A stretch of 64,000 bases of DNA, taken from NCBI GenBank assembly GCA_015660915.1, contig JACTTZ010000004.1, positions 124,001 to 188,000 of the forward strand, given 5' to 3'. The translations under genes and the position numbers were made by a program. The stretch is from Methanomicrobia archaeon. Its GTDB lineage: Archaea > Halobacteriota > Bog-38 > Methanoflorentales > Methanoflorentaceae. Within the stretch, counting starts at the first letter, position 1. Each line of letters starts with the position of its first letter. Below are positions 7,906 to 52,283 of the stretch, in pieces. Under the pieces are notes generated by a model, which had not been told where the DNA came from, searched no databases, and saw only the letters and a program-made list of their open reading frames with translations.

Positions 7906-7931
7906 CGTGTGCCCCTCGTGCCACTGCCGAC

Positions 7932-10282: not shown

Positions 10283-10384
10283 CTAACCCAATACACGAAA
10301 CTGGTACGCTAGCAGCCACCAAAGCACAAAAATAAAGATGATTAGTAGGATCAAGAAGATTCCCGCAAGCTGACGCTGTTCCAC
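10283..10384 (-). CDS. 33-residue single-span membrane protein
   Basis: A GTG-started frame of 33 residues (VEQRQLAGIF, then a continuous hydrophobic span to WWLLAY, ending QFRVLG). The ribosome site aggtgat lies five bases before the GTG, which strongly supports translation. It has one transmembrane helix with a short charged N-terminus and an Arg after the helix. It lies 92 bases past the MFS exporter on the same strand and could be a small regulatory or accessory subunit of it; this is inference. It was found by reading the strand directly. Confidence 0.6.
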   Translation of the reverse strand: MEQRQLAGIFLILLIIFIFVLWWLLAYQFRVLG

Positions 10385-10476
10385 GACATATCACCTACTG
10401 ACCTTTTTTTGCGCTTCTAGATAAATGTGACATCGGCCGCGCCTTGCAAAACACGTCCTTAAGTTGCGCTCCTGTT

Positions 10477-11934: not shown

Positions 11935-12401
11935 TCAGCGCTCCTCGTTGGGTGGAATAATTTGCGAGCCGCGGCTGCTGGAACGAGTGCCTGCTCCTAG
12001 AGCCCGCGCATCGCCGCTATTTCGTTATCTGGCAAACGTAGCATTTTACAAGTTAAATAAGGTTTTTCATTTGATATTCCCTGTAAACGGCTTCAGCTGG
12101 CAATGAAGGTTGCTCTTAAAATCAGCTGTGCATCACTCGCGGTCCGATTCGTTAGATACCGGCCGCGCCATCGCAAGCGGCGTCTGTTGGTCGCACCCCA
12201 GCAAGCATCAGAGCGAGGCTCTAGCGAACGATGACCCCCGCTCTAAACGCGTGTTCGCAGATAAGTACGAATCCCATTTCACGGTTCGTCAACCGATCAC
12301 GCAGGGTCATTTCGCAACGTTTATTGCATCCCGCCGTAGTTGGCTAGACACGTCGTGCGGTTGGGGCGACCACATCGATTATCTCAAGCTTGTGAGGAAC
12401 G
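11935..12401. other. intergenic region between divergent genes
   Basis: It contains the ribosome site of the MFS gene at the left edge, a TATA-like agttaaataagg near 12050 on the plus strand, and gtgagga just before the channel gene. A 43-residue frame from 12103 has no recognisable features and is not called. Confidence 0.4.
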
Positions 12402-13934: not shown

Positions 13935-14266
13935 CGATTCGGCCGCTCTTAGACGACAGAAGTGACGAAGATCCCCTGTTCGAATACAACTCACTTGTAA
14001 TGTGGGTGAAGCGGGAGAAGATCCCACTGACGCGTATAGCCTCTCATTTTGCTCTAGGAGATTTGAGGAAGTTTGCCGAGCAATATGGCGATATTATTCA
14101 GTGGGATCAGTCAAATCGAGCGTATATCATGACTCATAGTGCAAGCGGTATCAGTTGGAAGCACTACAAGCATCCGCTGCCTGAGAACGTGTTTGATGCG
14201 TATATGGAGTATTGGGCGGAAGTCAGATTCGAAATAACGCGGAGTTTTCGTTCTAACAAAAGCTAA
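13935..14266 (+). pseudogene. C-terminal fragment of an unrecognised protein fused to the antiporter remnant
   Basis: About 110 codons in frame with the end of the antiporter remnant (FEYNSLVMWVKREKIPL ... MEYWAEVRFEITRSF). They do not belong to that family. The composition is that of a soluble protein with conserved aromatic residues. A second, more damaged copy of its last 150 bases lies at about 17526-17690, so this is a fragment of a repeated or duplicated gene. The parent family is not recognised. Confidence 0.5.
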
Positions 14267-14381
14267 TTATATCCCCATCGTGCAATGGTATGGCATCGCA
14301 TGCTTTCGTTGTTAGGACTTCTGCGAACTAGAAAGAAGCTTCGACAACGCCTAATTGCCCTAATTTGATAACGAGGCATAA

Positions 14382-15488
14382 ATGGCTAAAGACTCCGAAC
14401 CTGAGAAATGGGGGTATGAAAGACACAAGGAAGTTAAGCACGAGCTTCTTGAGAAATACTTGTCAGTTTGGATTACTATTCTTGGGACAAGATTTAGAAA
14501 GATTTGCTATTTTGACTGCTTTGCCGGAAGGGGAGAATATGAAGACGGCACTCTGGGGTCTCCGATTAAGGCGATTGAAATAGCTGATAGAAAAACCAAA
14601 GATTACGAAAAAATATTGCTAGTATTCATTGAAAAGAATCTTGATAATTTTAACAATCTCGTTAACGTCTTGGAGAAAAAAAAGCAAGAAATTGCGAATC
14701 TCGACAAAATCGTCATACTTCCAATGAATACCGATTTCAATAGCGCTGTAGGGCAAGCATTTGGAAGTTTGGGTAAAGGACAAGATATAGCGCCGTCCTT
14801 TTTCTTTGTTGACCCTTTTGGGTATACTGGCATTCCGTTCGACGCGATAAGGAGAATATTGTCTTATCCAAGGACTGAAGTCTTTTTCACTTACATGGTT
14901 GATTCAATAAGGCGTTTCATAACTTACCCGGCCATTTCTGAAACTTTAACAGATCTCTTTGGCACTGACAAATGGGAAGAAATAATTCAAAAACCGGACA
15001 GAGAGGCTGCTTTGGTCGAGCTATATAGAAAGCAACTACACGAAGATGCGGGCGCGAAGTATAGTTTACATTTTAAAATGAGTGAAAGCCGGAGATTAAG
15101 GACATTATACTATCTAATACACGCGACTAATAATCTAAAAGGCCACTATGTCATGAAAGATATCATGAATAAGGCAAGTCCGCACGGCTCTTTTGCATTT
15201 CTCGGGCCAAAAGACTCTGCAGTATGGGGTCAAACTAGATTGGTTGATGATGACATAAACGATTTAAAGCGACAATTATTAGAGAGGTTCGAAGGCAAGA
15301 CCTTGACTTTTGACCAAATCTTGGAAAAAATATGCATTCCGTGGTACCTAGAGCCTCCCCGCACTGAAGGACAGTACAGAAAAGCGCTGCAAGAACTTGA
15401 AAGCGAAAAAAAATGTAATGTACTACGTATTAGCTCAAAAAGGTCGGGGCTGAAACAAAAAGATATGATTACTTTCCCTGCCGCGTAA
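14382..15488 (+). CDS. tcmP: three-Cys-motif partner protein TcmP
   Basis: A 368-residue protein that I recognise as TcmP. It begins PEKWGYERHKEVKHELLEKY and has a nucleotide-binding-like loop DCFAGRGEYEDG (residues 45-56) and VDPFGYTG (143-150), which resemble motifs I and IV of Rossmann methyltransferases. The biochemical activity of the family is unproven. TcmP genes are named for their habit of sitting beside a radical-SAM-like protein with a three-Cys motif; such a gene lies 88 bases away, convergent. The start has gagg before the ATG. The base composition is clearly more A/T-rich than the flanks, which suggests transfer. Confidence 0.85.
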   Translation: MAKDSEPEKWGYERHKEVKHELLEKYLSVWITILGTRFRKICYFDCFAGRGEYEDGTLGSPIKAIEIADRKTKDYEKILLVFIEKNLDNFNNLVNVLEKKKQEIANLDKIVILPMNTDFNSAVGQAFGSLGKGQDIAPSFFFVDPFGYTGIPFDAIRRILSYPRTEVFFTYMVDSIRRFITYPAISETLTDLFGTDKWEEIIQKPDREAALVELYRKQLHEDAGAKYSLHFKMSESRRLRTLYYLIHATNNLKGHYVMKDIMNKASPHGSFAFLGPKDSAVWGQTRLVDDDINDLKRQLLERFEGKTLTFDQILEKICIPWYLEPPRTEGQYRKALQELESEKKCNVLRISSKRSGLKQKDMITFPAA

Positions 15489-15576
15489 CTTGTCAACCCG
15501 CCATTGACCGTGCAGAAGCAGGAACCGTCAGCAGGTCAGAAAACAAATAATCAAGCGATCCCTATTGACAGCAGCG

Positions 15577-16407
15577 CTAGTAACTGGGCAAGGGGAAGCG
15601 AGAATCCGGTGTAGATACGTTATTGGTGGTCTTATTCTCTATTCGAGTGCCCTTTTTTATGTGAGGCTCAATCTTCTTTTTCCGGCAGAAGTCTATTACG
15701 GTATTAGCGCAGTCTTCGTAAAAATTGGCAATGCCGGCAAAACTGTTAACTTTGAAATTATAATTCATTTTTCCGAAGATTATTCTATCGACGAACGACA
15801 ATGCGTCGAGTATCTCAGATACGTCTTGCTTAACTAGATTCGGTGGCGGATATGGTTCAATGCTAGCCCACGTTTTTAGCCCCGCGTCATGGAGATATTT
15901 CAAAGAAGCTATCCTTTCCTTCAGCGGGGCGCTGAAGCACTCAAATCTTTGCTTGAAATCTTCGCTAAGCGAAACTAGGGTTATACCATAGGTATTTTGA
16001 TTTCCGTATTCTTTGGTCTCTGCGAGAACCTTTGGGTATATCCCCTTGGTGAGGACGGTCGTTTTGATCGCATTGTCATTTAGTTTTTTGATTATTCTTA
16101 AGGTCAAATCTTCGACCTCAGGGTGGCAGTACATGAAAGGGTCAGTCGTGAAACATAAGTGCACAAAATCAATTTGATTTCTGTATTTTGGTATTTCTTG
16201 ATCGAGTATTTCTATGGCATTTGAAACAAGTTTAGGCTCCAACCAGTCATTATAATCTTTGATTCTGCCAAATCTCTTCGCCATCAACATCGCATAACAA
16301 GGGTACCTACAACCGTGCGCACATCCTAGGACGTGATTAATACAAAAGTTCGCGTATTCTACCTTGCTTCTATAAAGCAAGCTTTTCTTCTTGACCGTTT
16401 TCGTCAT
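15577..16407 (-). CDS. radical SAM-like protein with three-Cys motif (TcmP partner)
   Basis: A 276-residue TIM-barrel radical SAM-like protein. The cluster motif is GCAHGCRYPCYA at residues 28-39, with Cys29, Cys33 and Cys37. The spacing is C-x3-C-x3-C, one residue longer than the classical C-x3-C-x2-C. Another Cys at 22 lies close by. The rest (TTVLTKGIYP, WASIEPYPPP, IIFGKMNYN) follows the spore-photoproduct-lyase-like or DUF5131-like subgroup. It probably acts with TcmP on a shared substrate, which is not known. A TATA element tttatatattt about 25-35 bases before the ATG implies a leaderless message. Confidence 0.82.
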   Translation of the reverse strand: MTKTVKKKSLLYRSKVEYANFCINHVLGCAHGCRYPCYAMLMAKRFGRIKDYNDWLEPKLVSNAIEILDQEIPKYRNQIDFVHLCFTTDPFMYCHPEVEDLTLRIIKKLNDNAIKTTVLTKGIYPKVLAETKEYGNQNTYGITLVSLSEDFKQRFECFSAPLKERIASLKYLHDAGLKTWASIEPYPPPNLVKQDVSEILDALSFVDRIIFGKMNYNFKVNSFAGIANFYEDCANTVIDFCRKKKIEPHIKKGTRIENKTTNNVSTPDSRFPLPSY

Positions 16408-16542
16408 TGCCTGATTCTTTTCTACGACAAATATATAAATATCATAATGTTAAAAAGCGCCGCGTAAGTGTTTATTCTTTACTATTTGTTGATGACTCAT
16501 TGCAGCTAAAGTTTCCCAAAGCGCAAAAAGAGCGAAAAAAGA

Positions 16543-16569
16543 ACGCTATTTTTAGCGTCGTGCTTTTTC
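16543..16569 (+). terminator. small hairpin followed by T-run
   Basis: A perfect 6-bp stem ACGCTA-TTTT-TAGCGT is followed by cgtgcttttt. It lies in the 294-base gap between divergent genes, where no transcript is expected to end, so its role is unclear. Confidence 0.3.
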
Positions 16570-16701
16570 ATAGACCATTATTTGCTCTAAGCTAGCATCC
16601 GATCATCATAAATCGTGATCTACACGATCTGTGCGGCCCCTCAGACCGCTTTCAAAGCTATCAGTCAAATGAAACTCTTAAGTAAGCGAGCCTGCTAGAT
16701 T

Positions 16702-17231
16702 ATGAAGGTTGACATGGAAGACATATCGGATGCAGAGCCAACCGAAACACAAAAAAAGAACTAAACCTCCTGATTAAAAAGGCGCCGCTTGAACACAAGG
16801 TGAATCAATACAGGTTGTGTGTAGAGACCGTGGACAAGATTTATGATAGGAGAATTGAAACGAATAAATTCTATATCAGCTTACTCACTGCTCTGTTCGC
16901 GTTGCTTTCCTTAGTAACGGGGGGAGGATTTGTTTTTGGAAACGTCAAGAACTTCGTAATTCCCGCAGTGGCGTTTGTTGGGATTTTGTTGTGCATTATT
17001 TGGGTCTTGATGATTCGTTCTTACAAACTAATGAATGTAGCTAAGTATGAAGTTATACATCAAATGGAAAACGATATGGGCCTATTTCATTGCTATGAAG
17101 AAGAGTGGGCAAATATCCAAAGGCGGAAACGATGGCAACGTTACATCCCGCAAGCGTGGATAGAATATTGCATCCCTGCTATCTTTGCTCTTGCCTATCT
17201 GAGTTTATTGTATATCATGCTTAGCCCCTAA
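16702..17231 (+). pseudogene. small membrane protein (RipA-like), frame broken at an A-run
   Basis: An ATG at 16702 opens MKVDMEDISDAEPTETQKKN and stops at 16762. In the -1 frame the sequence continues KELNLLIKKAPLEHKVNQYR and then ETVDKIYDRRIETNKFYISL, followed by two transmembrane helices (residues 30-75), a soluble YEEEWANIQRRKRW segment and a last helix. The aligned E/DKIYDRR..N pattern is that of the about 150-residue membrane proteins annotated as RipA-like; this is recognition by memory. The break lies in seven As reading CAA AAA AAG, an in-phase A-AAA-AAG slippery heptamer. So either one A is missing (decay or sequencing error) or the ribosome shifts -1. Codons from 16800 on are intact. 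Confidence 0.6.
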
Positions 17232-17439
17232 TAGATGCACAGAACATATAGCGTGAATTGTTCTTTGTGGTCCACATCAGCACTCAAATACTAGGTGTCT
17301 TCACAAAAGAGTATTTTTTCATCCCGGCCCATAATCCACAGCTAGGAAAATCAGCGAGGGGGCAATTAACAACCTCAACAATTCGTCTCATTTTAACATA
17401 AGTCTTTTGACACGACCAGCGTCTTGCGATCTGACATTT

Positions 17440-17690
17440 CAATCAATATGTGAGACTAAAGCACTCGGTGTTCTCTAAGGTTGGGTAGCAAGGTAATTGA
17501 ACCGCTCACAGACCTTCGCCTGAATAGGCAATATTCTACGCCAGTCAAACTGAGCATATAAGTGACGCACAGTTTGAGCGGTATCGATCATAAGCACTAC
17601 GAGCATCCCTGCCTGAGTATGTTTACGAGGTATACGTAAAGTAGTGGCAGGATGTAAGCTTCATTATCTGAGTTGACTATGCTACTTGAA
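17440..17690 (+). pseudogene. degenerate second copy of the 13935-14266 gene fragment
   Basis: Blocks such as agcggtatcg, aagcactacgagcatcc and ctgcctgag match, in order and at similar spacing, the sequence at 14138-14190 (agcggtatca, aagcactacaagcatcc, ctgcctgag), with several insertions and deletions. No reading frame survives. The remainder of the gap 17232-17815 shows no gene. Confidence 0.6.
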
Positions 17691-17815
17691 CAAAAGTCCC
17701 ATATGCAGAGCGGTTCATGTAGTCTATATTTGAATCTGCAATAGAAGCTAAATCAAAACCTTAATGATACGCCTTTTTGCGTTTAGAGGCAAGACGGAAC
17801 GATTAAGAGGAAATT

Positions 17816-19162
17816 ATGGCATTGCACTCCAAGCAAACAAGCGAGATAAGGGATCCGATTTATGGTTTCATAAAAATAGATGAGTGGGAAAGAACGATAA
17901 TCGACGCGCCAGAGTTCCAACGGCTTAGAAGGATTCAACAGTTGGCCCTTACGAGCATGGCTTTTCCCGGCGCTTTGCATACTCGTTTTGAGCATTCGCT
18001 TGGAGCCATGCATATGGCCACTGTCATGTATGATGCGATAATTGAAAATCCAAAAAACAAGAAGCTGTTAAAAGACCGATTTGGATATAAAAAGCCCCAA
18101 CTCGCGCACAATCGACGACTAGTTAGATTAGCCGCATTACTCCACGACGTAGGTCACGGTCCATTTTCCCACGTTGCAGAACGAGTTATGCCTTTCAATG
18201 ATAAGGAACGAAAGCCCTTCAAACACGAGGACTATACTTTCGCGATACTAAGACAATCTCCTTTAAGAGATGTGATAGAGAAAAATGACGTTGGAATAGA
18301 CGTGGAGCAAATCGTAGAATTATTTGAAGCAACGGAAGAAAATATGCTCTGGAAGGAGATAATCTCAAGCCAACTTGACGCAGACAGGGGAGACTATCTT
18401 TTGAGAGATTCTCATCATATTGGAGTGCAATACGGTGTCTACGACTACCCCAGATTACTAAATACGCTAGCGCTGGGCTACGATCCTGAGACTGGTGATA
18501 TCGAAACTGGCGAACTCAAACTAGGGATATTTGAAGATGGGCTGAGGGTAGCAGAATCGTTCATCATTGCACGCTACTTAATACTCACCCAAGTCGCTTT
18601 GCATAAAACTAGAAGAGCATTTGATTATCATTTGGAACAAGCGATGAAAGAAATTCTACCCAGCAGCAAGTTGCCAAAGCCTAGTAGAATTGAACGTTAT
18701 TTGGGCTACGATGATTATGTTGTATTGAATAAGATAAGACGTAAAAAAGACAAGTCTGAAGATTGCAAAGCTATCTTAGATAGACGGCAAATTAGGCCCG
18801 TATATGAAAAGGAGATAATTTCGAAGAAAACTGAACCTCAAGAGGGTCAACGTGTCGAGGAAAGCTTTAGTGAGGAGGAGGAAAGAATTCGTGAAGAGAA
18901 GAAAGAGGTAGAAGAGGTAAGCGAACTATTGAAACGAAAACGCATCTGGGTTCATTTAGATGACGTTGAAAAGTCATGGTATGACATAGATGCTACTGAG
19001 ATACTTGTAACAAGCAATCACGGAGAAGTAGGACTACTGTCAGATCGTTCCAACATTATGAAAAACATGGGACCATTTAAAGCATGGCGTTTATATGTAA
19101 AACCAGAGGCTAAAAAGAAGGCTGATTATGCAATTCGGCGATGGAGAGAAACCCATGTTTAA
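17816..19162 (+). CDS. HD-domain phosphohydrolase (dNTPase/SAMHD1-like, YwfO type)
   Basis: A 448-residue protein with a complete HD metal site: His60 (TRFEHSLG), His110-Asp111 (LLHDVGHGPFSH) and Asp188/Asp190 in SQLDADRGDYLLRD. These are the hallmarks of deoxynucleotide triphosphohydrolases and SAMHD1 relatives. Residues about 310-380 form a highly charged helical insert (EEEERIREEKKEVEEVSE). The start ATG has agagga upstream. It overlaps the next gene by eight bases, so the two are translated together. HD plus YwgA-like pairs also occur in Bacillus (ywfO-ywgA). A nucleotide-depleting defence or housekeeping role is possible. Confidence 0.87.
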   Translation: MALHSKQTSEIRDPIYGFIKIDEWERTIIDAPEFQRLRRIQQLALTSMAFPGALHTRFEHSLGAMHMATVMYDAIIENPKNKKLLKDRFGYKKPQLAHNRRLVRLAALLHDVGHGPFSHVAERVMPFNDKERKPFKHEDYTFAILRQSPLRDVIEKNDVGIDVEQIVELFEATEENMLWKEIISSQLDADRGDYLLRDSHHIGVQYGVYDYPRLLNTLALGYDPETGDIETGELKLGIFEDGLRVAESFIIARYLILTQVALHKTRRAFDYHLEQAMKEILPSSKLPKPSRIERYLGYDDYVVLNKIRRKKDKSEDCKAILDRRQIRPVYEKEIISKKTEPQEGQRVEESFSEEEERIREEKKEVEEVSELLKRKRIWVHLDDVEKSWYDIDATEILVTSNHGEVGLLSDRSNIMKNMGPFKAWRLYVKPEAKKKADYAIRRWRETHV

Positions 19163-19682
19163 GTATCCCGCTATGATAGGATATTTAGTCAAAGCACTGA
19201 GGGACAAACATCCTGAAGAAGAACAAATTGGGAAAACCAAAATACAAAAAATACTTTTTTTGCTAACCCGAAAGCATATCGTGGATTTTGATTACTCTAT
19301 GCACTACTACGGCCCTTACTCACCTGAAGTTTCGAACGAGCTACTTGTTGCCGAAACTGCAGGGATCATACAAAGTAAGTGGAAAGATGATAAGGGCTTT
19401 TTCATCGAAAAAGGGCCTAACGAAAAGAAATTCGAAGAAGAAATAGAAAAAGATGAGATCAGTGCCATTGATGAAATCGTCGAAGTTTTTGGTAAATATA
19501 ACGCAAAGAAATTTACAATCCTAGCTACTTTGCTTTTCTTGAACGACAAAAAAGGTTTTTTTAGTAAAGAAGATTTAGTGGAAGAAGTACACAGAATTAA
19601 GAAATATCCTGTGCAAGATATACGTGAAGTTCTAGAGGATTCAGAAAAGGCTGGATACTTAGTTTATCAAAAACTCAAATAA
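19155..19682 (+). CDS. YwgA / Panacea-like helical protein
   Basis: A 175-residue protein with an N-terminal helical domain GKTKIQKILFLLTRK followed by HYYGPYSPEVSNEL. The K-x-x-K-x-L-[FY] plus GP-[YF]-s-p-E pattern is that of YwgA and Panacea-type (DUF4065-like) proteins, which include antitoxins that block a neighbouring toxin. The C-terminal third looks like a winged helix (FSKEDLVEEVHRIKKY). The ATG at 19155 lies inside the end of the HD gene with ggagag at the right distance. A partner or antidote role for the HD protein is inferred from coupling and family. Confidence 0.72.
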   Translation: MFKYPAMIGYLVKALRDKHPEEEQIGKTKIQKILFLLTRKHIVDFDYSMHYYGPYSPEVSNELLVAETAGIIQSKWKDDKGFFIEKGPNEKKFEEEIEKDEISAIDEIVEVFGKYNAKKFTILATLLFLNDKKGFFSKEDLVEEVHRIKKYPVQDIREVLEDSEKAGYLVYQKLK

Positions 19683-19865
19683 TGTGAACTTAGTTTCTTC
19701 CACAAAAGTCAGCTTGTTACAGCGCCTTTTTCTGTCAAAAACCTCGCACGCTGTGATCCAAGCCGGTTGTAAGATTCCTCGGAAGACTTACTGAGAGACT
19801 TTTTTCAATTTTATCCCGAGCAAAAATCGCCGGTTAACTACTTTTCTAGATTAACTATTTGACCC

Positions 19866-19882
19866 TCGCCTCAGCGAGGCGA
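19866..19882. repeat. short perfect hairpin TCGCCTC-AGC-GAGGCGA
   Basis: A seven-base stem with an AGC loop. The same 15-base core, CGCCTCAGCGAGGCG, occurs again at 49664-49678, and a related hairpin with the complementary loop GCT is at 47451-47471. No T-run follows, so it does not look like a terminator. Confidence 0.5.
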
Positions 19883-19889
19883 ATTTCAT

Positions 19890-20130
19890 CAGGCTTGCAT
19901 TCTGCTTTCTGCTACCGGCGGACGCTCTTTGAAGGTCGCACCATTCGTGGGCATTCTTGAACTGCATCGGACAGTTATCAAAGATTCGAAGGCACTACTG
20001 CCGACTGAGATGACTTCATCATCGAAGATATTCATAAGCGTGGCTAAGCTTTCCGAGGGCTTTGGCCGCCTCTCTCTTGACCGAGAAGCTGCTATCTTTG
20101 AGCACTCTTAGCAACAGCCCAGCGGTTCTG
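19890..20130 (-). pseudogene. decayed extra HEAT repeats beyond the stop of the HEAT gene
   Basis: Just past the stop of the HEAT-repeat gene the shifted frame reads DDNRTAGLLLRVLKDSSFSV and KREAAKALGKL before a stop at about 20019-20021. A further frame then gives MNIFDDEVISVGSSAFESL. These are recognisable HEAT units separated from the main gene by frameshifts. The intact ancestor therefore had at least one to two more repeats. Nothing else is seen in 19683-19890 except the hairpin at 19866. Confidence 0.6.
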
Positions 20131-22089
20131 TTATCGTCCGAACTTACGAAGGGCTGTCGCAGCGCTCTTGCGAACATCACTGTCCGCATCGTTGAGCGCC
20201 CTTTCTAAGGGCTCAACGGCTCTGTTATCACCGATCGTGGCGAGGGCATCCGCAGCGTTCACGCGAACACGCTGAATGTCCGAGTCGTTCAGCGCCTTTA
20301 TTAACGGCTCCACAGCCGGCTCGCCGATCCTGCCGAGGGCATCCGCAGCGCGCCTGCACACATTCAAATCCGCGTCGTTGAGCGCCCGTATCAACGTCCG
20401 CACCGCCCTGAAACCGCCAATCTTACCAAGGACATCCGCCGCGTTACTGCGAACATCACTGTCCGCGTCGTTGAGCGCTCTTATTAACGGCGCAACGGCC
20501 GGTTCGCCGATTGGATCACACTTATCCCATTGTCCTTTCGCTATCCAGTAGGCGGCCGCTGCTTCATCCCTGCCCGGGGTCCACCCCAACGTATCGAGGG
20601 ATTTCGCAGCGCTCTTGCGCACACGCGAATCCGCGTCGTTGAGCGCCTTTTCTAAGGGCTCAGCGGCTCTGCTATCACCGATCGTGCCGAGGGCATCCGC
20701 CGCGTTACTGCGAACATCACTGTCCGCGTCGTTGAGCGCCTTTATTAACGGCGCAACGGCCGGTTCGCCGATCCTGCTGAGGGCATCCGCAGCGCGCGCG
20801 CGCACATTCAAATCCGCGTCGTTGAGCGCCTTTATTAACGGCTTAACGGCCGGTTCGCCGATCCTGCCGAGGGCGTCCGCAGCCGCCCTGCGAACATGCT
20901 CGCGCGTGTCTCCAAGCGCCTTTATTAACGGCTTAACGGCCGGTTCGCCGATCCTGCTGAGGGCATCCGCCGCGTTACTGCGAACGTCACTGTCCGCGTC
21001 GTTGAGCACCTTTATTAACGGCGCTACTGCTCTGCTATCGCCGATCCTGCCGAGGGCTTCCGCCGCGTTACTGCGAACGTCACTGTCCGCGTCGTTGAGC
21101 GCCTTTATTAACGGCTTAACGGCCGGTTCGCCGATTGGATCGCAATTACCCCATTGTCCTTTCGCTATCCAGTAGGCGGCCGCTGCCTCATCCTTGCCCG
21201 GGCTCCACCCCAACGTATCGAGGGCTTCCGCCGCGTTACGGCGAACGTCACTGTCTGCATCGTTGAGGGCTCTTATTAACGGCGCCACTGCTCTGCTATC
21301 GCCGATCCTGCCGAGGGCTTCCGCGGCGGCAGCGCTCTCGTGCACATGCGAATCTGCGTCGTTGAGCACCCTTATTAACGGCTCCACTGCTCTGCTATCG
21401 CCGATCCTGCCGAGGGCTTCCGCGGCGGCAGCGCTCTCGCGCGGACCCCAATCCGAGTCGTTGAGCACCCTTATTAACGGCTTAACGGCCGGTTCGCCGA
21501 TCCTGCCGAGGGCTTCCGCAGCCGCCCTGCGAACATGCTCGCGCGTGTCTCCGAGCACCTTTATTAACGGCTCCACGGCCGGCTCGCCGATCCTGCTGAG
21601 GGCATCCGCCGCGTTATTGCGAACATTCAAATCCGAGTCGTTGAGCACCCTTATTAACGGCGCCACTGCTCTGCTATCGCCGATCCTGCCGAGGGCGTCC
21701 GCGGCGCCACGGCGCACATTCAAATCCGAGTCGTTGCGCGCCTTTATTAATGGCTCGACGGGAGGTTCACCTATATTGACAAAGGCTTCAGCAGCAGCCC
21801 TGCGACCATGCTCGTCCGTGTCTCCGAGCGCCTTTATTAACGGCTTGACGGCCGGCTCACCGATCGTGCCGAGGGCTTCCGCCGCGTTACGGCGAACGTC
21901 ACTGTCTGCGTCGTTGAGCGCCTTTATTAACGGCTTGACGGCCCGGGGATCGCAGATCTCGCCAAGGACGCTCGCAGCGTTTATGCGAACATCACTTTCC
22001 CTTTTATACCCCAATGCCTTGATGAGTCCTTTGACGTCCCTCTTCTCTCTCATCTTTTTAACATTTGGCGTGCCGAACTCGAAGACCAT
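20131..22089 (-). CDS. HEAT-repeat (PBS-lyase-type) protein with 19 repeats
   Basis: A 652-residue solenoid built almost entirely of about 31-residue HEAT units of the form AVKPLIKALNDADSDVRRNA followed by AEALGRIGEP. I count 19. Units 9 and 15 carry the same 25-residue insertion containing AAYWIAKGQW, six repeats apart, which suggests block duplication. Such proteins are scaffolds or belong to bilin-lyase relatives; no enzyme site is visible, and it should be cytoplasmic. The start at 22089 has ggggtg eight bases upstream. The frame could be extended 16 residues. DNA units are so alike that recombination or assembly collapse is possible. Confidence 0.88.
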   Translation of the reverse strand: MVFEFGTPNVKKMREKRDVKGLIKALGYKRESDVRINAASVLGEICDPRAVKPLIKALNDADSDVRRNAAEALGTIGEPAVKPLIKALGDTDEHGRRAAAEAFVNIGEPPVEPLIKARNDSDLNVRRGAADALGRIGDSRAVAPLIRVLNDSDLNVRNNAADALSRIGEPAVEPLIKVLGDTREHVRRAAAEALGRIGEPAVKPLIRVLNDSDWGPRESAAAAEALGRIGDSRAVEPLIRVLNDADSHVHESAAAAEALGRIGDSRAVAPLIRALNDADSDVRRNAAEALDTLGWSPGKDEAAAAYWIAKGQWGNCDPIGEPAVKPLIKALNDADSDVRSNAAEALGRIGDSRAVAPLIKVLNDADSDVRSNAADALSRIGEPAVKPLIKALGDTREHVRRAAADALGRIGEPAVKPLIKALNDADLNVRARAADALSRIGEPAVAPLIKALNDADSDVRSNAADALGTIGDSRAAEPLEKALNDADSRVRKSAAKSLDTLGWTPGRDEAAAAYWIAKGQWDKCDPIGEPAVAPLIRALNDADSDVRSNAADVLGKIGGFRAVRTLIRALNDADLNVCRRAADALGRIGEPAVEPLIKALNDSDIQRVRVNAADALATIGDNRAVEPLERALNDADSDVRKSAATALRKFGR

Positions 22090-23097
22090 CAATATCACAC
22101 CCCAAATATCCTCTCTTGATACGCGGCGATATATCAATATCGGTGATAGCTGCTATCGTCGCTGCGGTCGACTGCGTCATTAAGGTTAGCGATACGATCC
22201 CCGATTCTCAAATGTTGGCGACAGGATGCTCTTTTTTACAAGGCAGGCAGCAGGGAGACGCGAATATACCATCTGTCGCGCTTCGCAAACTGGCCAAAAA
22301 TCATAGGGTTCGGGACGAGCGCAGAACAACTATAGAGACTGTGTAACCCCTATGCAGTGACTATTTCTGGCACGACGCGCACAGCGATATGATCGTGTGT
22401 GTGCACCCGCATAGCAAAAAGGTCGGGAGGACGGAAGCATAACCGGCGTGTGCTCTGCCGTTCTCCCTTGGAATCAGGATCGAGCGTGCATTTCTGAAGC
22501 GACATCGATTCGTTTCTATATGGTGAGCGTACACTACGTCAGAACCTTTGTGCGAAAAAGGCGCTGCACTTACTATTAACGTCGTTGACAAGTTCGACTG
22601 CTTTTGGATTGCCCCAGGCCCTCATCAAAGAGGGGGATTCCGATCCGCACGAAGCGGTCTCTAAGGAACTTCTGCCGCCCCTTGCGGTCAAACGAGGCGA
22701 CGAGGAGCTACGCTGAGATGAAAAAGAAGAGTACGATGATGCCGCTAATTATGGCCGAGAAGACATAGTTCACGTACGTGGCGTGATAGATCGCGTCAAG
22801 ATGCCCTAAAAAGGCATTCACGGTATTTCATGGGTGCGCGGAGCCAGAGACCTGAACTCCGCTACAATGTGATCGCCGTTGACGAGTAGGTACCAAACCA
22901 AAGGCCATCGAAGTTAACGTTTCGACCATATTTATCCGGTCAATTGATTCCCCAAGGCTGAATCGTAAAAGCAGCGCCACGACCGAGAAAAAACATCTGC
23001 TACGGTAGCGTAAGTCGTATCTGGTGATGCGAGTCTTACTACGTTCATGAATTTATTGACTTAGGCAAATCTAACAGGCGACAACATCGCATACGCG
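22090..23097. other. 1-kb region of degraded coding fragments, no intact gene
   Basis: A minus-strand segment at about 22716-22830 reads HLDAIYHATYVNYVFSAII and then a hydrophobic helix to a stop, as the C-terminus of a membrane protein. The start and upstream part are lost. A plus-strand run near 22600-22716 (ALIKEGDSDPHEAVSKELL) looks coding but has no start. An open frame at 22361-22591 (minus) is unrecognised. The right end lies just downstream of the P-type ATPase stop. I interpret this as gene debris. Confidence 0.45.
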
Positions 23098-31685: not shown

Positions 31686-31812
31686 GCGAGTACGATGGGT
31701 GTTAGGCTAGCACTTAAACTGGCAGCAGTCACCGTCATCACGATGCGGACGCTCGACATGATATTCTAGTCACAATTTACCAGTAACTTACAAGAGGGTG
31801 AAATTACAAGTG

Positions 31813-31843
31813 CGCATCTTCACAAAGATGCGTTTTCTTCTTT
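31813..31843 (+). terminator. strong hairpin with T-rich tail
   Basis: CGCATCTT-CACA-AAGATGCG is a perfect 8-bp stem with a four-base loop, followed by TTTTCTTCTTT on the plus strand. No intact plus-strand gene lies directly upstream, so it may end an unannotated RNA or a former gene. It also lies 20 bases past the stop of the minus-strand hydrolase gene. Confidence 0.55.
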
Positions 31844-31863
31844 ATGGATGTGACGGGTAAATT

Positions 31864-32607
31864 TTATTCCAGAGATGACAAAAAATCCTGAGACACACGT
31901 CGCTCTTTGTCTTCCCATTTATCAGACAAAATCTTTAGCTTTTTTAACTCTGCGTCTTTTTTCGGTTTGACCTTGTCATTGCTTATAGTCCAGATATAGA
32001 TTGGTTCTTCAACTAGCTGGCTTCCTTTTATGGCCTCTTTGATTATTCTATATGCTACTAAACTGCCCTGAGTTAGCGTATATCCCCCACAAACATCTTT
32101 TACTCTCTCAAAAAGTGCTCGTGCAATTAGTTGTCCAGACCCAATTCCGATGTGATAAATTCTACAATCAGTCATTTTATGTTGGTTTTTACCAAAAAAC
32201 CCAGATTCACAGTTATTGGCCATCTGCCAAATCATCGGATATTCTTGGTGTCCAACAACTAAATATTCGGGACATCTTTTTCTAGAAGATGGGAAAAGAA
32301 CTTCGGTTTCGGCGTCTTTCTCTATTTTACCAGCGAATTTTTTTAGGTGCTCATTTAGTTGAGATTCAGTAAGTGGATGGTTTTTTGTTGTCTCATCGAG
32401 GATTTCGGAGAAGAAATCTCCGAACCGAATAATGTCGTCAGCGCGTCCAGAACATCCCCACAACCTATTTTCGCCAAATCTGAATATTTTTCGGGTTTTT
32501 GACCTTATGTATTCATTATTAATTAGGTGCAACTCTAGCCCGTCAGAAGCAAAAACAACGCCGTCTGTACAAGTTATCGCTATTATTAACGTCGCCTCTA
32601 GTTGCAT
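31864..32607 (-). CDS. proteasome-fold (Ntn-hydrolase-like) protein
   Basis: A 247-residue protein that opens MQLEATLIIAITCTDGVVFA followed by SDG, the first strands of proteasome beta, HslV and related N-terminal-nucleophile hydrolases. It continues with TRKIFRFGENRLWGCSGRAD, matching the K-[IV]-f-x-i-x-d-x-x-x-x-x-x-G pattern. If processed, Thr6 or another early Thr would be the nucleophile. This is not a standard proteasome subunit. The ATG follows the upstream stop by one base (TAAT-ATG), with gaggaagg upstream, so it is translationally coupled to a 67-residue coiled-coil partner. Confidence 0.65.
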   Translation of the reverse strand: MQLEATLIIAITCTDGVVFASDGLELHLINNEYIRSKTRKIFRFGENRLWGCSGRADDIIRFGDFFSEILDETTKNHPLTESQLNEHLKKFAGKIEKDAETEVLFPSSRKRCPEYLVVGHQEYPMIWQMANNCESGFFGKNQHKMTDCRIYHIGIGSGQLIARALFERVKDVCGGYTLTQGSLVAYRIIKEAIKGSQLVEEPIYIWTISNDKVKPKKDAELKKLKILSDKWEDKERRVSQDFLSSLE

Positions 32608-32608
32608 A

Positions 32609-32812
32609 TTAAGCGCTGCCTTCCTCAATGTTCTTAAGCTGTTCTGAAAGATATTGCTTGATTCTCTCGTCGCCAACATCCTTGATTTGATTTATGAAGT
32701 GTTGCTTAATCTCGTTTAATCTAGCAATATCATGGTTAAGACTCTCTATTACGCTCAAAAGTGTAAGTGCCCGCTCTATCTCTCTATGTTTGTCGTCGTC
32801 TTTGACTATCAA
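32609..32812 (-). CDS. small coiled-coil partner of the proteasome-fold protein
   Basis: A 67-residue, almost wholly helical protein (HREIERALTLLSVIESLNHD, LNEIKQHFINQIKDV) without Cys or a membrane segment. TTG at 32812 is the likely start. Its stop is one base before the ATG of the Ntn-type hydrolase. The tight coupling suggests that the two products act together, perhaps as adaptor or inhibitor and enzyme. The family is not recognised. Confidence 0.6.
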   Translation of the reverse strand: MIVKDDDKHREIERALTLLSVIESLNHDIARLNEIKQHFINQIKDVGDERIKQYLSEQLKNIEEGSA

Positions 32813-32875
32813 GTTACCAACCCTTTCTTAACAACCCATTTTCAACAACTCTCATTTTAACAGCACCCAAAATCG

Positions 32876-32957
32876 GCTTTGTAAAATAGTAAAAAATCAC
32901 CCGACTTTTTTAACACAGCTCTGACTTTTTTAACGTGGGGCACTTATTTTACAAAGC
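32876..32957. promoter_or_regulatory. 13-bp inverted repeat in the divergent promoter region
   Basis: GCTTTGTAAAATA (32876-32888) and its exact reverse complement TATTTTACAAAGC (32945-32957) flank 56 bases that contain two copies of gacttttttaac. The arms lie between divergently transcribed genes. cccaaaatc occurs outside both arms as a direct repeat. It is a candidate operator for both genes, or the relic of a tiny inserted element. Confidence 0.5.
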
Positions 32958-33055
32958 TCCCAAAATCAAAAAATTGATATAAAAGTGCGTTGTCTAAAAA
33001 GGCGACTTCGCCGCGGATACGATTTGAGCCGCGCAACTGGTTAAATCATCGAGCC

Positions 33056-40974: not shown

Positions 40975-43401
40975 CTAGAGGGTCACCTTCATCGATTGGC
41001 CGGGACCCAGCACGGTCTCTCGACCTCTCAGTTTGGCCTTCACGTCTGCCTTGTTGCCCGGCCGGTTCGACAGCGCCAGCTGTCCGTCCGCCAAGCCGAC
41101 GTCGAGCCAACACTCCCCGACGAGCAGTGCGTACCGCACCGTGGCCAGCTGGGGTGGGAGCCGCGGGTCGACCGATACCGACCCCTCACCCGGTTCGACG
41201 CCGGCGTACCCACGACGCACCAAGTCGACCGTGCCGGCCATGACGCCTATATGCACTCCCTCGCGCGTCGTGCCGCCCTGAACGTCGTACAGGTCGCTCT
41301 CGAGCGCCTCGAGGAACAGTGACCACGACGCGTCCGGGTCGGTCCGCGCGAGCAGCCAAGCGTGCACCACGCGGCTCAGTGTGGAACCGTGAGAGGTGCG
41401 CGCGGCGTAGAAGTTGACGGTGCGCAGCAGGGCCGCCTCGTCCACCTCGTACCCAAGCCACGCGAGCAACCGCTGGACCTCGTCGCCCGGGAACAGGTAG
41501 AAGAGCATGAGGGCGTCCGCCTGCTTGGACAGCCGGTACCGGTTCGGCGTGTCGCCCTCGGCCTCAAGGATCCGGTCAAGACGGGCGATATCGCCGTACT
41601 TGGCCCTGTAGGCGCCCCACTCGAACTCCTCGAGCCGCTCATACCCCTCGAACTGACTGATGACGCCGTCGGGGAGAAACGGTACGAAGAGGCGACGGCT
41701 GATGTCGCGCCACAGGTCGAGCTCGGTGTCGTCAATGCGGAGTATGCGGACAAGCTCGTCGCGCCTGAGAACGGGGAGCAGGTCGAGCGCGTCGAGAGCA
41801 CGCCGGAGGACCCAGGAGGTCATGACGTTCGTGTAGGCGTTATTGTCTATGCCGAGCTTGTCGGACCACGGGTACGCGTCATGGTATTCGTCAGGCCCCA
41901 TGACGCCGCATATCACGAAGCGCCCGCGTGCCTCGTCGAAGCTCGTCAGGCTCGCCAGAAAACGGGCGATCTGCAGCAGCATCTCCGCCCCGTGAGAGCG
42001 CAAGAACGCGGCATCGCCGGTACTCTCGTAGTAGCGCCAGACGTTGTAAGCGATTGCCACGTTCACGTGCCGCTGGAGGCGACTGTTGTCCAGCAGCCAG
42101 CGCCCGGACTTCGGGTTGAGGTGCACCACCTGCGTCTCTTCGCGGCCGTCGCTGCCGCTCTGCCACGGGAACATGGCTCCCCGGAACCCCTCGGCGCGGG
42201 CCGCCCGCACGGCTGCCGGCAGCCTCCGGTAGCGGTACAGCAGAAGCGCCCGCGTGATCTCGGGAAATACGCCGGTCAGAAACGGAAACACGTAGAGCTC
42301 GTCCCAGAAGATGTGGCCGCGATAAGCCTCGCCGTGCAGGCCGCGCGCGGGCAGACCGGCATCGAGGTCGACGGTGTGCGGCGAGACGGTCTGCAGCACG
42401 TGGAACACGTGGAGGTGCAACAGCATGCTAACGTGATCATCGTCACCCACTTCGACGGTGCAGCGGCGCCAGATCGCGTCCCAGGCCTCTATGTGGCTTT
42501 CTAAGAGGGCGTCGAAGTCGCCGGCGTCCTTCAGCCGCGTTAGAGCGGCGTACGCGGGTTCGGAGATGCCATTCTCACGAGACGTACACAAGACGACGGT
42601 CTTTTCGACCGTCAACGGAACGCCGCGCTGAGCCGCTGCCTGCAGCACTAGCCCGACGTAGCCAGTCCGCTCGCTCAGCTCGGCGGCGACGAGTGCGGGG
42701 TCGCCACCGACCTTCAGCCGCGTACGCGCGGCCTCAGCGATGCGGATGCGCGACTGCGAGGTCTCAGCCACGAGACAGATCGTGTCAGGGTCCGGTCGCG
42801 AGGCGGCGACTGGCTCGAGGTGGTCCGATGCAAGGTCACGGTATCGCGGCACGCCGGCGTTGACCACCGACCCGTCGAGGGCCGACTCGAAGGTGATGCG
42901 GCCGGACCAGTTACGCGCAGTGAGCGTCAACTCAAGGGCCGCAACGTTCTTGTCCGCCATGCTCACGAAGCGGCGCTCGGTCAGCTCGGTCTCACGGCCC
43001 GCGTCGTCCCTGAAGACCAGCGAGCGCCTCAGGACGCCCTGGCGGAGGTCGAGCTCCTGCCTATACTGCAGCAGATCGGCGCTGTCAACGTCGAACTCCG
43101 GACCGTCGTCGACGCGGAACGTGAGAGGGAGCCAGTTAGGCAGGTTGACGAGGTCCTCGTTCTCGATGGCTCGTCCGGCCACGTTGCTGACCAGACGATT
43201 GAAGCCGCCGGCGAGATACGTCCCTGGGTAGTGCACGCGGTCCGCTGAGCTCTGCGCACTGGCGCCGCGGGTCACGAAGTATCCGTTGCCCACGGCACAG
43301 AGGGCCTCGCGCAGCCCCTCATCCTCCGGGCGATACCCCTCGTAGGCCAGCGTCCATCGGTCTCCGCTCCGCCCAGAGGCAGCCGGACCGATGCCGCTCA
43401 C
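40975..43401 (-). CDS. GH65 family glycoside phosphorylase (trehalose/kojibiose/maltose type)
   Basis: An 808-residue (alpha/alpha)6-barrel enzyme of family GH65. The general-acid Glu lies in VMGPDEYHD (about residue 504), and the phosphate-binding TSHGSTLSRV near residue 670 indicates phosphorolysis rather than hydrolysis. HIFWDELYVFPFL and GYRGAMFPW-like sequence are also typical. The product would be beta-glucose-1-phosphate, the substrate of the upstream mutase-like domain. The GTG start overlaps the upstream stop by four bases (GTGA), with ggaggag upstream. G+C is far above the neighbouring genes. Confidence 0.92.
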   Translation of the reverse strand: MSGIGPAASGRSGDRWTLAYEGYRPEDEGLREALCAVGNGYFVTRGASAQSSADRVHYPGTYLAGGFNRLVSNVAGRAIENEDLVNLPNWLPLTFRVDDGPEFDVDSADLLQYRQELDLRQGVLRRSLVFRDDAGRETELTERRFVSMADKNVAALELTLTARNWSGRITFESALDGSVVNAGVPRYRDLASDHLEPVAASRPDPDTICLVAETSQSRIRIAEAARTRLKVGGDPALVAAELSERTGYVGLVLQAAAQRGVPLTVEKTVVLCTSRENGISEPAYAALTRLKDAGDFDALLESHIEAWDAIWRRCTVEVGDDDHVSMLLHLHVFHVLQTVSPHTVDLDAGLPARGLHGEAYRGHIFWDELYVFPFLTGVFPEITRALLLYRYRRLPAAVRAARAEGFRGAMFPWQSGSDGREETQVVHLNPKSGRWLLDNSRLQRHVNVAIAYNVWRYYESTGDAAFLRSHGAEMLLQIARFLASLTSFDEARGRFVICGVMGPDEYHDAYPWSDKLGIDNNAYTNVMTSWVLRRALDALDLLPVLRRDELVRILRIDDTELDLWRDISRRLFVPFLPDGVISQFEGYERLEEFEWGAYRAKYGDIARLDRILEAEGDTPNRYRLSKQADALMLFYLFPGDEVQRLLAWLGYEVDEAALLRTVNFYAARTSHGSTLSRVVHAWLLARTDPDASWSLFLEALESDLYDVQGGTTREGVHIGVMAGTVDLVRRGYAGVEPGEGSVSVDPRLPPQLATVRYALLVGECWLDVGLADGQLALSNRPGNKADVKAKLRGRETVLGPGQSMKVTL

Positions 43402-44951
43402 GACAGCTCCTCCAAGGTGAGGAGCGCGCGGAAGAACTCCAAGACCTCCCCCACATCGGTGAGGGTGTAATCGGCAGCGGTCACGTCGTGCGGGTCGCCG
43501 ATGCGCACGCCGACACCGCGCCCGGCGATCGCCTGGAACGCATCTTCGTCGGTGTCGTCGTCGCCGATGTAGAGCGGCACGTGCGTCCCTATAGCCATGT
43601 CCAGCCGCTCCAGCAGCCACAGCAGCGCCTTGCCCTTATCGTAACAGGCGATGCCCGGCCGTAGCTCGAGGACCATCTTGCCGGTGGCCTTGCGCAGTCC
43701 GAAGAAGACGTCAGCGACCTCATCGAAAGCGGCCATGACGCGCGGCACTTGGTCGGGAGGCGTCTGGCGGTAGTGCACGGTCACCGCGAAGGTCTTGTGC
43801 TCCACCCAGGCTCCAGGAATGTCCTCCACCTTCCTTTCGAGGGCGGCGCGCGCCGCCGCCACATCGTCGACGGCCGCAAGGCCGTGCTGGACGTGCCCTC
43901 CGAGCGCCTCGGGGGCGTCGACGTCGCACCCGTGCGAGCCCGCGTACACGATGCCGTCGATGCCGACCATCCTGCGAACGTCGGCCAAGTCGCGACCGCT
44001 GATGATGGCCACCGGGAAGTGCGCCGCCAAGCGCTCGAGCGTCGCTCTCATGTCGTCGGAGAGGACGGCTAGGCTCGGGTGTGCCACGATCGGAGTCAGC
44101 GTACCGTCATAGTCGATAAAAAACGCCGGCGTGGCCTGGGAGAGCCGCCGCTCGATATCGCCCGCGCAGACCAAGGCGGACGGACTGAAAGGGGGGTCCA
44201 CGACCACGTCCGCAAGGTCGGAGACCACCACATCGGCGCCAGCGGCGAGAAGGCCGTTGGCATCACCGGTGCGGTCGACCCCGATCACGAGACCGAAGCC
44301 GCCCTGGCGGCCGGCCTCCACACCGGCGCGGGCGTCTTCGACGACGACGGTGCGCTTTATGGTGGCGCCGAGCCTGCGCGTGGCTTCTACGAAGACTGCC
44401 GGATCGGGCTTGCCGAGCAGTCCCATCTCTGCCGCGGTGATGCCGTCCACGCAGACCTGGAACAGGTCGCCGACGGCACCGGCGCGGAGGACCAGCTTCA
44501 GGTTCTTGCTAGCTGAGATGATCGCGGTCCCGATGCCGACACCCTGGAGGATGCGGACGAGCCTGACGGTGCTTTCGAACACGCCCACACTGTGCTGCTC
44601 GAGCTCCTCCAGGAAGTAGCCGTTCTTTCGGTTCCCGAGCCCGCACACCGTGTCCGCGTCGGCGGTATCATCGGGTGTGCCCTCAGGGAGGACGATGCCT
44701 CGCGAGGCGAGGAAGCTGCGCACCCCGTCGTAACGCGGTTTGCCGTCGACGTACTGGCGGTAGTCGACCTCCGCGTCGAACGGACGCCAGTCCTCGCCGG
44801 TACTCCGCGAGCGCTCTCCCATGTAGTCGTCGAAGAGCCGTTTCCACGCGGCGGCATGGACGACAGCGGTCTTGGTGACGACCCCGTCCATATCGAACAC
44901 GACTGCGTCGAACTCCTCTCGTGGCAGGACGACGGTTCGCGCTTCGCTCAT
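43398..44951 (-). CDS. fusion of beta-phosphoglucomutase-like HAD and trehalose-6-phosphate phosphatase
   Basis: A 517-residue two-domain protein. Residues 10-245 are a beta-phosphoglucomutase-type HAD (nucleophile Asp20 and Asp22 in VVFDMDGVVT, later VVEDARAGVEAG). Residues 265-517 are an OtsB-type phosphatase (FIDYDGTLTP near 278, IISGRDLADV, IGDDDTDEDAF). The order mutase-OtsB-GH65 equals that of the single long protein OtsB1 (Rv2006) of mycobacteria, here split in two overlapping genes. gggaggg precedes the ATG. It probably works in trehalose phosphate turnover. No trehalose-phosphate synthase is in the window. Confidence 0.9.
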   Translation of the reverse strand: MSEARTVVLPREEFDAVVFDMDGVVTKTAVVHAAAWKRLFDDYMGERSRSTGEDWRPFDAEVDYRQYVDGKPRYDGVRSFLASRGIVLPEGTPDDTADADTVCGLGNRKNGYFLEELEQHSVGVFESTVRLVRILQGVGIGTAIISASKNLKLVLRAGAVGDLFQVCVDGITAAEMGLLGKPDPAVFVEATRRLGATIKRTVVVEDARAGVEAGRQGGFGLVIGVDRTGDANGLLAAGADVVVSDLADVVVDPPFSPSALVCAGDIERRLSQATPAFFIDYDGTLTPIVAHPSLAVLSDDMRATLERLAAHFPVAIISGRDLADVRRMVGIDGIVYAGSHGCDVDAPEALGGHVQHGLAAVDDVAAARAALERKVEDIPGAWVEHKTFAVTVHYRQTPPDQVPRVMAAFDEVADVFFGLRKATGKMVLELRPGIACYDKGKALLWLLERLDMAIGTHVPLYIGDDDTDEDAFQAIAGRGVGVRIGDPHDVTAADYTLTDVGEVLEFFRALLTLEELS

Positions 44952-45021
44952 GGCAGAACCCTCCCTACGCGCGACGCAGTGACGGCTTGGCCGCGCCGCC
45001 CGTTGCGCACGTCGCCGGCGG

Positions 45022-45160
45022 ACTTGTCGATCGCCTGGTCGCCCGTTTCTAAGGTGTCGATGGTCCGACACTCGATGTGGGTCAAACGCTCGGCTATTCG
45101 GGGCGGTTTTACCGCGATTATAGGTATGTGCGTCAACCCAGCGACTTGAAACTTGTTCAT
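45022..45160 (-). pseudogene. flavin-reductase (flavoredoxin-like) gene fragment
   Basis: From the ATG at 45160 the frame reads MNKFQVAGLTHIPIIAVKPP then RIAERLTHIECRTIDTLETG. The AGLT...KPPRIAE and H-[IL]-E-C-R...ET-G-D pattern is the middle of FMN-binding flavin-reductase-like proteins. After GDQAI the family similarity ends abruptly where the GC-rich segment begins. The N-terminal part is likewise lost upstream. This marks the probable insertion point. The rest of 44952-45462 has no gene. Confidence 0.6.
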
Positions 45161-45462
45161 GTCTCTCTCCGACAGGTTCCAACGATCCATACTTGTTCTA
45201 CCAATTCTTTGTTGGCAAATTGATGACAAATTCATTAGTCAAACACTCGCTTTCGTTCAGCTTAAAGCGTTCCAATTGATACACAGAGCTTTCACGGCTG
45301 AACTTGTGTGAGAACCGCAAACGAACGGCAGCAAGATTATTAGCTATTGTCTAAAAAATAAAAAAGATTGTGGTTTACGTTTTTTACCTGACTCGCGAGG
45401 CCCCACATTGAGTACAAAACAGAGCCATTAGGCGCGCGTTTTCACGGGGCCGATGTTGACGA

Positions 45463-51158: not shown

Positions 51159-52283
51159 ATGATTAGCAAGGAAGTGATGCTCAAGGACCACCGGATGATC
51201 GTCGATCTGAACTGTCCAGTGGCGCGGTTCCTGCATAACCCCGTGCTTACGGCCAAGGAAGTGAACCAGGTGTGGCAGAACCCGGGCCTCCAGGTCACGA
51301 CCGTCCAAAACGCCGGCATCGCGCTGCACGGAGGCGACACGGTCATGCTGTTCCGGTCTCATCTTCGTTGCGGCATGAGCGTGCTCGGGGTCGCCCGCAG
51401 CAGCAACGGCGTCGACGGCTGGCGTGTCGAGCCGCGACCGGCCATGGTGCCGGCCGCCGAGGGGGACGCCTTCGCCCCGGGCACCGATGCCGGGGCCCTC
51501 ATCGAGAACGAGTCGGGCGGTGTCGAGGATCCGCGGATCACCCAGATCGGCGACACCTACTACATCACCTACAGTGCCTATCACGCGACGATAAAGAACC
51601 GCGTGCGCGTCTCGCTGGCCACGACCCACGATTTCTCCCGCTTCATGCGCCACGGCCCGGTGCTCGAGCGAGACATGCGGAACGTGGTGGTTTTCCCCGA
51701 GCCCATCGGCGGCCGCTACGCGGGTCTGTTCCGACCCAATGACATCACGAGCGGCGAGGTCGGAGGCATCTACACGCAGATCAAGCTCGGCTGGACGAGC
51801 TCGGTCGAGTCAAATCGGTGGGAGATCCGGCCGGAGCCCATCATGAGGACCGGCGCGGGCCCGAGCGCCTTCTCGGACAAGATCGGTCCTGGCGCGCCGC
51901 CCTTCAGGACTGCCAAGGGCTGGCTCAGCGTGTTCCACGGGGTGCGCACCACCATGGACGGCAACCCCTACGTGCTCGGCGTGGCGCTGCACGACCTGGC
52001 GGACCCGGCGCGAGTTAAGATGTCGAGTATCCCCATCCTGTTCCCTTCCAGGGCTGACTGCCACGTCGAGGATGTCGCCTACACCCATGTGCCGCAGGTC
52101 GTGTTCACCTGCGGGGTCGTGCGCCGCGACGATGGCAGCATCCTCATCTACTACGGCGGCAATGACACGGTCATGAACGTGGGCGTGACCCACGAGGACG
52201 TGCTCATCGCGCTCTGCGAGAGCTACGGCCAGGACCCACTGACCGGGCATCTCAAGTACGACATTCGCGGCCACCGAAGCTGA
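51159..52283 (+). CDS. GH130-family glycosidase/phosphorylase
   Basis: A 374-residue five-bladed beta-propeller of family GH130 (beta-mannoside phosphorylases and hydrolases). The recurring blades show as GGVEDPRITQIGDTYYITYS, VVFPEPIGGRYAGLFRP and ILIYYGGNDTVMNVG. The ED-PR motif with its Asp is the site that supplies the acid. Whether it is a phosphorylase cannot be decided by eye. ggagg precedes the ATG. The gene and about 280 bases beyond are strongly GC-rich, like the segment at 41-45 kb, and are probably of bacterial origin. Confidence 0.9.
   Translation: MISKEVMLKDHRMIVDLNCPVARFLHNPVLTAKEVNQVWQNPGLQVTTVQNAGIALHGGDTVMLFRSHLRCGMSVLGVARSSNGVDGWRVEPRPAMVPAAEGDAFAPGTDAGALIENESGGVEDPRITQIGDTYYITYSAYHATIKNRVRVSLATTHDFSRFMRHGPVLERDMRNVVVFPEPIGGRYAGLFRPNDITSGEVGGIYTQIKLGWTSSVESNRWEIRPEPIMRTGAGPSAFSDKIGPGAPPFRTAKGWLSVFHGVRTTMDGNPYVLGVALHDLADPARVKMSSIPILFPSRADCHVEDVAYTHVPQVVFTCGVVRRDDGSILIYYGGNDTVMNVGVTHEDVLIALCESYGQDPLTGHLKYDIRGHRS

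Follow-up and report, generated by a model that had tools for sequence, protein, structure and literature searches.

The window (the whole stretch of archaeal DNA that was analysed, 64,000 nucleotides long) encodes a 247-residue protein, P0001, that by its sequence is a divergent proteasome-type Ntn hydrolase with a putative threonine nucleophile and a lineage of its own. Directly upstream lies the gene of a small helical protein, P0002. We hypothesize, with a probability of about one half, that the two genes form a mobile, conflict-type accessory module carried on transposon-derived DNA. This reading is based on sequence homology and the catalytic residues, on the order of the genes, on the lack of the pair in sister genomes, and on transposon termini and other transposon-borne proteasome-like genes in the same genome (G000).

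A divergent proteasome-type hydrolase

The P0001 gene (31864..32607, minus strand) runs from an ATG at 32607-32605 to its end at 31864. The Pfam family PF00227 (Proteasome) matches the protein with 30.3 bits against a cut-off of 22.4 (E=4e-7), and a P0001 profile aligns with archaeal 20S beta subunits over 192 columns (E=3.7e-9), placing Thr6 on beta Thr1, while the archaeal alpha alignment is barely matched (E=0.14). In the PDB, a profile built from P0001 and its two nearest relatives, P0003 and P0004, finds the beta chains of 20S proteasomes (E=3e-7). The first-pass annotation had assigned the protein to the proteasome, or Ntn, hydrolases, and the Pfam, beta and PDB matches bear this out.

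In an alignment of 29 sequences, T6, K40, G54 and a GSG motif (156-158) are invariant, and position 17 is occupied by D22 in P0001 and by D or E in the others. Together, T6, D22, K40, G54 and S157 are the equivalents of proteasome Thr1, Asp17, Lys33, Gly47 and Ser129. The putative nucleophile Thr6 is preceded by a leader, MQLEA, whereas the relatives begin with MT or MS. This suggests that in the relatives the nucleophile is bared by removal of the methionine, and that P0001 must process itself or be processed. A longer P0001, starting at the in-frame ATG at 32679 (24 additional codons), was considered and rejected: the start at 32607 is favoured because the added codons have the wrong GC content by codon position (0.25/0.46/0.54, against 0.47/0.35/0.34 for the gene) and because the 67-codon frame that overlaps them has a coding-like pattern.

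Structure prediction had been recommended as the way to locate the nucleophile. An initial AlphaFold2 run on three sequences was too poor for use alone. With beta subunits added as alignment rows, the model (pLDDT 75, pTM 0.76) has a predicted proteasome-type alpha-beta-beta-alpha fold, with 20S beta as its best Foldseek match (E=4e-9), a result that is not independent of sequence homology because the beta rows were part of the input. The model made without beta rows has a pLDDT of 41 and a best proteasome match of E=6e-3, and all matches listed for it are proteasome-family chains. Helices are predicted at 56-76 and 81-98 (H1/H2), and the beta-aided model ends in a confident C-terminal helix of 29 residues (218-246).

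The closest relative found, P0003 of Methanoregula sp. PtaB.Bin085 (NZ_MVQB01000038.1, G290), is only 26% identical to P0001. P0004 (G511) comes from the same Methanoregula-type genus, and more distant relatives are encoded in G224 and G268. In the tree P0001 groups with P0003 and P0004 (97/89), on a long and poorly anchored branch. The genes of these two nearest relatives adjoin genes for an Mrr-type endonuclease and type III restriction-modification (L037:514-10031, L038:10167-13650). No close relatives were detected in plasmids, phages, viral contigs or GTDB contigs; a match to an ABC-three-component sequence of Dinoroseobacter (E=0.4) was discarded, as it lies antisense to the gene.

A small helical protein in front of the hydrolase

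The P0002 gene (32609..32812, minus strand) begins with TTG and encodes 67 amino acids with an amphipathic-helical, coiled-coil-like character. Its stop codon, TAA, occupies 32611-32609 and is separated by a single T, at 32608, from the ATG of P0001, so that the one-base spacing claimed earlier is exact. The GC content of the frame by codon position (0.51/0.21/0.44) is coding-like. An open reading frame of at least 66 amino acids arises in 69 of 2000 dinucleotide shuffles, and the length of P0002 is thus by itself weak evidence. Two segments have helical, heptad-like hydrophobic periodicity above that of shuffled sequences, their hydrophobic moments being reached by 30 and 49 of 5000 shuffles. 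The coding-like small frame and the non-coding-like character of the longer P0001 N-terminus favour two coupled genes, and the spacing, composition and periodicity uphold the earlier description of a small helical frame coupled to the hydrolase.

No convincing family was found for P0002 in Pfam, NCBIfam or PHROGs. The best match is to a stretch of the PADLOC model PbeC (1.8e-6), a CxC-type ABC ATPase (PMC10853773). The match is lost when P0002 is scrambled or reversed, and a lightly altered version keeps 7.6e-5. The matching stretch is probably the coiled-coil arm of PbeC, and we read the match as coiled-coil similarity, not as a sign that P0002 belongs to a Pbe system. Weak matches of the coiled-coil type to SseE, L544 and others were likewise disregarded, as was a 93-aa coiled-coil frame in a transposon on contig C24, which aligns with P0002 at a pairwise E of 0.019 over 19 amino acids.

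The first-pass annotation had also envisaged a dedicated hydrolase-adaptor pair and had suggested a profile search for its conservation. The comparison gives no support for a dedicated pair that is conserved: no homologue of P0002 was found in 394 genomes of the phylum, and none of the four relatives of P0001 that could be detected (G290, G511, G224, G268) has a P0002-like gene next to it. Absence of the small gene beside homologues is the outcome that the annotation had named as a refutation, here for relatives that are all remote (about 26% identity). It is equally absent beside P0005 and P0006, the further proteasome-like proteins described below. These absences are what one would expect if P0001 were an isolated proteasome-like hydrolase and the small frame in front of it unrelated or a remnant, the two genes being neighbours without functional coupling. 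We consider this possible but doubtful: the genes share a strand and are one base apart, P0002 has coding-like codons and helical periodicity, and the relatives lacking it are distant.

An insertion bordered by a transposon terminus

Both genes lie in a segment of 1,236 bp (31727..32962, GC 39%) without counterpart in sister genomes. The pair is missing from all four sister genomes that have the locus (G001, G002, G003, G006), and the flanking genes align with them. Against G001 and G003, homology on the left stops at 31726 and on the right restarts at 32963; between these points the two sister genomes have unrelated sequence of about 132 bp. No P0001 homologue was found in six congeners.

The right edge consists of two modules. 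Module B (32815..32867, minus strand) is a dispersed repeat (GGTGCTGTTAAAATGAG...) with GTTGTTAA iterons, its tip at 32867 and its element side towards the genes, such that the P0002 gene begins 55 bp inside; it is the terminus of an IS6-like transposon. Module A (32875..32958) is an 84-bp MITE-like element with perfect 13-bp inverted repeats (GCTTTGTAAAATA) and internal TGTTAAAAAAGTC iterons, framed by two copies of a 9-bp target duplication, CCCAAAATC (32866..32874 on the left, 32959..32967 on the right). Sister genomes have two elements (L082, L083) that are built alike, 86 bp long and likewise framed by 9-bp duplications. On the left side of the pair no second module B end scored above shuffled sequence. 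A complete transposon would have inverted termini on both sides and a target duplication around the pair; only the right terminus was found, and from this one end we infer a vehicle that is truncated. The earlier description of the gene arrangement is confirmed; it had missed the transposon termini, the empty site of the sister genomes, and two transposon-borne proteasome-like genes.

The loss of one transposon end, together with the lack of a close P0001 homologue anywhere searched, could mean that the locus is the decaying remains of a transposon and that its hydrolase is inactive. We think this unlikely, as the P0001 frame is full-length and keeps its five active-site positions, and the P0002 frame is intact.

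Other islands in the window

An AT-rich block at 14001-20000 (about 41% GC), with GMT-wHTH-containing, radical SAM/DUF5131-like, HD-domain-like and SocA/Panacea proteins, has the look of a further accessory island; neither module A nor module B ends were found in it. A GC-rich gene adjoining the AT-rich island (20131-22137) encodes a 668-aa protein with many near-identical HEAT-like repeats (PLIKALNDADSDVR). Further GC-rich islands (64-67%) at 40975-45182 and 51159-52283 contain genes that are glycoside phosphorylase-like, HAD/trehalose-phosphatase-like and GH130-like, by sequence appearance only; they are likely the result of horizontal transfer from a GC-rich donor.

Proteasome-like genes in related transposons

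In the sister genome G006, a 4.8-kb element (L083:7812-12604) has module B as its inverted end on either side and is flanked by an 8-bp duplication, GGATCGAG. This element encodes an IS240-type SWIM-DDE transposase, together with a SocA-like protein, a DNA methylase and an EcoRII-C-like endonuclease. It and the adjacent SWIM-DDE transposon on the contig (G006:C155; L083:1149-7801, 7812-12604), with 8-bp and 9-bp duplications respectively, carry SocA/ParE-like, methylase and endonuclease cargo. A pattern search of the genus found nine module B tips, and the reversed control pattern found none. Four of the tips are in G000, where they lead into P0001 and P0002, into P0005 (contig C4), into P0006 (contig C24), and into a methylase gene with an adjacent reading frame; proteasome-like genes therefore follow three of the four.

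The P0005 gene resides in a complete IS5-like transposon of 3,540 bp (L096:5596-9135; G000:C4:45595-49134) with a 9-bp duplication, GACGTGAGT, whose content is P0005, with a serine nucleophile, an IS5-related SWIM-DDE transposase, and only one small reading frame. P0006, with a threonine nucleophile, is encoded in a complete IS5-like transposon of 5.1 kb (L095:2054 to L077:4179; G000:C24:59553-64678) with GGCTTTGTTGCA ends and a 9-bp duplication, TAACTCTTA. A second element abuts it (L077:4189-9647), with the same 9-bp sequence and with EVE and methylase/HSDR_N genes. From outer end to hydrolase start, 230 bp of the P0005 and P0006 elements are 84% identical, which indicates that the hydrolase gene belongs to the element. 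Among these sibling elements, the SocA/ParE-like, methylase, EcoRII-C and EVE genes are restriction-modification and toxin-antitoxin-like cargo.

Pfam gives no match for P0005 or P0006, and their profile matches beta at E=4.6e-4. They share an N-terminal Ser/Thr, a Glu at +16, a conserved Lys and a GGPID motif, and on these sequence features are probable proteasome-like proteins. Neither is close to P0001, which means that module B termini would have been reached by at least two lineages of proteasome-like proteins. Since P0005 and P0006 are only probable members and not close to P0001, the context common to all three may partly be coincidence. The literature searched reports nothing relevant on proteasome-like transposon cargo or on archaeal SWIM transposases.

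Relation to the 20S proteasome and to connectase

P0001 is not a 20S subunit, in line with the earlier statement that it is no standard proteasome subunit. Separate 20S alpha and beta genes are encoded in the same genome; the NCBIfam equivalog for archaeal beta, TIGR03634, scores 13.9 against a cut-off of 224; and the RDSxSGG motif of 20S beta is absent, the corresponding loop reading KGSQLVEEPI. Neither is it HslV by the equivalog NF003964 (13.6 against a cut-off of 137). One might still regard P0001 as an additional, divergent beta subunit that assembles with the resident proteasome's alpha rings, given that 20S beta is what it matches best by profile and by fold and that a threonine nucleophile behind a short leader is also found in archaeal beta. 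We give this little credence: in addition to the missing loop and the low equivalog score, the long C-terminal helix is unseen in the aligned beta proteins, and P0001 is absent from all congeners, which all keep alpha and/or beta genes.

The H3/H4 insertion of PMI-2 to PMI-6 is likewise missing from the predicted structure, in which helices 159-175 and 178-195 adjoin. Connectase lacks H1/H2 and has a two-helix S3/S4 insertion (PMC8665760). That P0001 could be a transpeptidase (ligase) of the connectase type, served by an adaptor of its own, a branch raised earlier and suited to an archaeal proteasome-like protein with a conserved Thr nucleophile position, is scarcely credible, as the model has the opposite arrangement, with H1/H2 present and no S3/S4 insertion predicted.

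A hypothesis for the two-gene module

We propose that P0001 and P0002 are an accessory module that was brought in by transposon-derived DNA. Its accessory nature is supported by the separate alpha and beta genes, the absence of a homologue in six congeners, and the insertion relative to four of them; its mobility is supported by the module termini and target duplications. The two proteins would be co-expressed from one message, with P0002 made first. P0001 would shed its leader, exposing Thr6, and presumably act as a protease. P0002 most likely binds P0001, probably by way of the long C-terminal helix, and would hold, assemble or mature it, as an adaptor or inhibitor. The module probably serves genetic conflict, either in defence or in element maintenance, like other transposon cargo, and general protein turnover would be left to the separate 20S proteasome. 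The gene order alone would fit a toxin-antitoxin-like module.

A broader version of this hypothesis is speculative, and we think it unlikely to hold as a whole: that proteasome-like hydrolases are recurrent cargo of archaeal IS5/IS6-like transposons, acting as conflict proteases, and that P0001 has a 67-aa coiled-coil protein of its own that checks or matures it, in the manner of an antitoxin or an assembly factor. In one small archaeal genome, three separate proteasome-like genes sit immediately within transposon termini, and two of these belong to complete elements with target duplications. Along with the restriction genes around relatives, this leads to the testable proposal that some orphan proteasome homologues are mobile proteases of conflict or element maintenance. 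With its leader ahead of Thr6 and its helical partner, P0001 points to a simple way of controlling such an enzyme.

Comparison with known systems

Fuchs, Alva and Lupas (2021) described 22 uncharacterised proteasome-like subfamilies beside HslV, Anbu, BPH and connectase, and stated that genomic context gave no pointer to a specific function of proteasome homologues (PMC8665760). The protein family is known, the functions of its members mostly not, and what appears new against the literature searched is the transposon context of proteasome-like genes. An uncharacterised branch of the proteasome-type Ntn hydrolases, as foreseen in the first-pass annotation, remains an apt description of P0001. 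It resembles the family in its predicted fold, its Thr/Asp/Lys/Gly set, and its compact accessory gene apart from the 20S genes. It differs in the five-residue leader before Thr6, propeptides being reported in beta and HslV only (PMC8665760), in a transposon context that was not described there, and in that no close member was found.

A C-terminal helix is reported for Anbu, WPH and ACC (PMC8665760), and the one predicted for P0001 would be compatible with the WPH and ACC subfamilies; for Anbu, the other side branch named earlier, Foldseek gave only a weak match, with the low-confidence model. With archaeal 20S beta, P0001 has in common a full-length profile alignment and the Thr1, K33, G47 and GSG positions, but it lacks RDSxSGG, is only about 14-20% identical, and has an extra C-terminal helix and an accessory distribution. 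P0003, although the closest protein found and in a common tree group with P0004 and P0001, has its nucleophile, Thr2, directly after Met, has no small helical partner, and is flanked by a restriction-type endonuclease gene.

The transposons are of two kinds. Those with the terminal inverted repeat GGCTTTGTTGCA, a 9-bp duplication and a DDE_Tnp_1 transposase related to IS5 resemble IS5/IS903-like elements, and those with the terminal inverted repeat GGTGCTGTTAAA, an 8-bp duplication and DDE_Tnp_IS240 resemble IS6/IS240-like elements. Unlike these known groups, they have an N-terminal SWIM domain and carry proteasome-like, methylase, endonuclease and toxin-antitoxin-like cargo.
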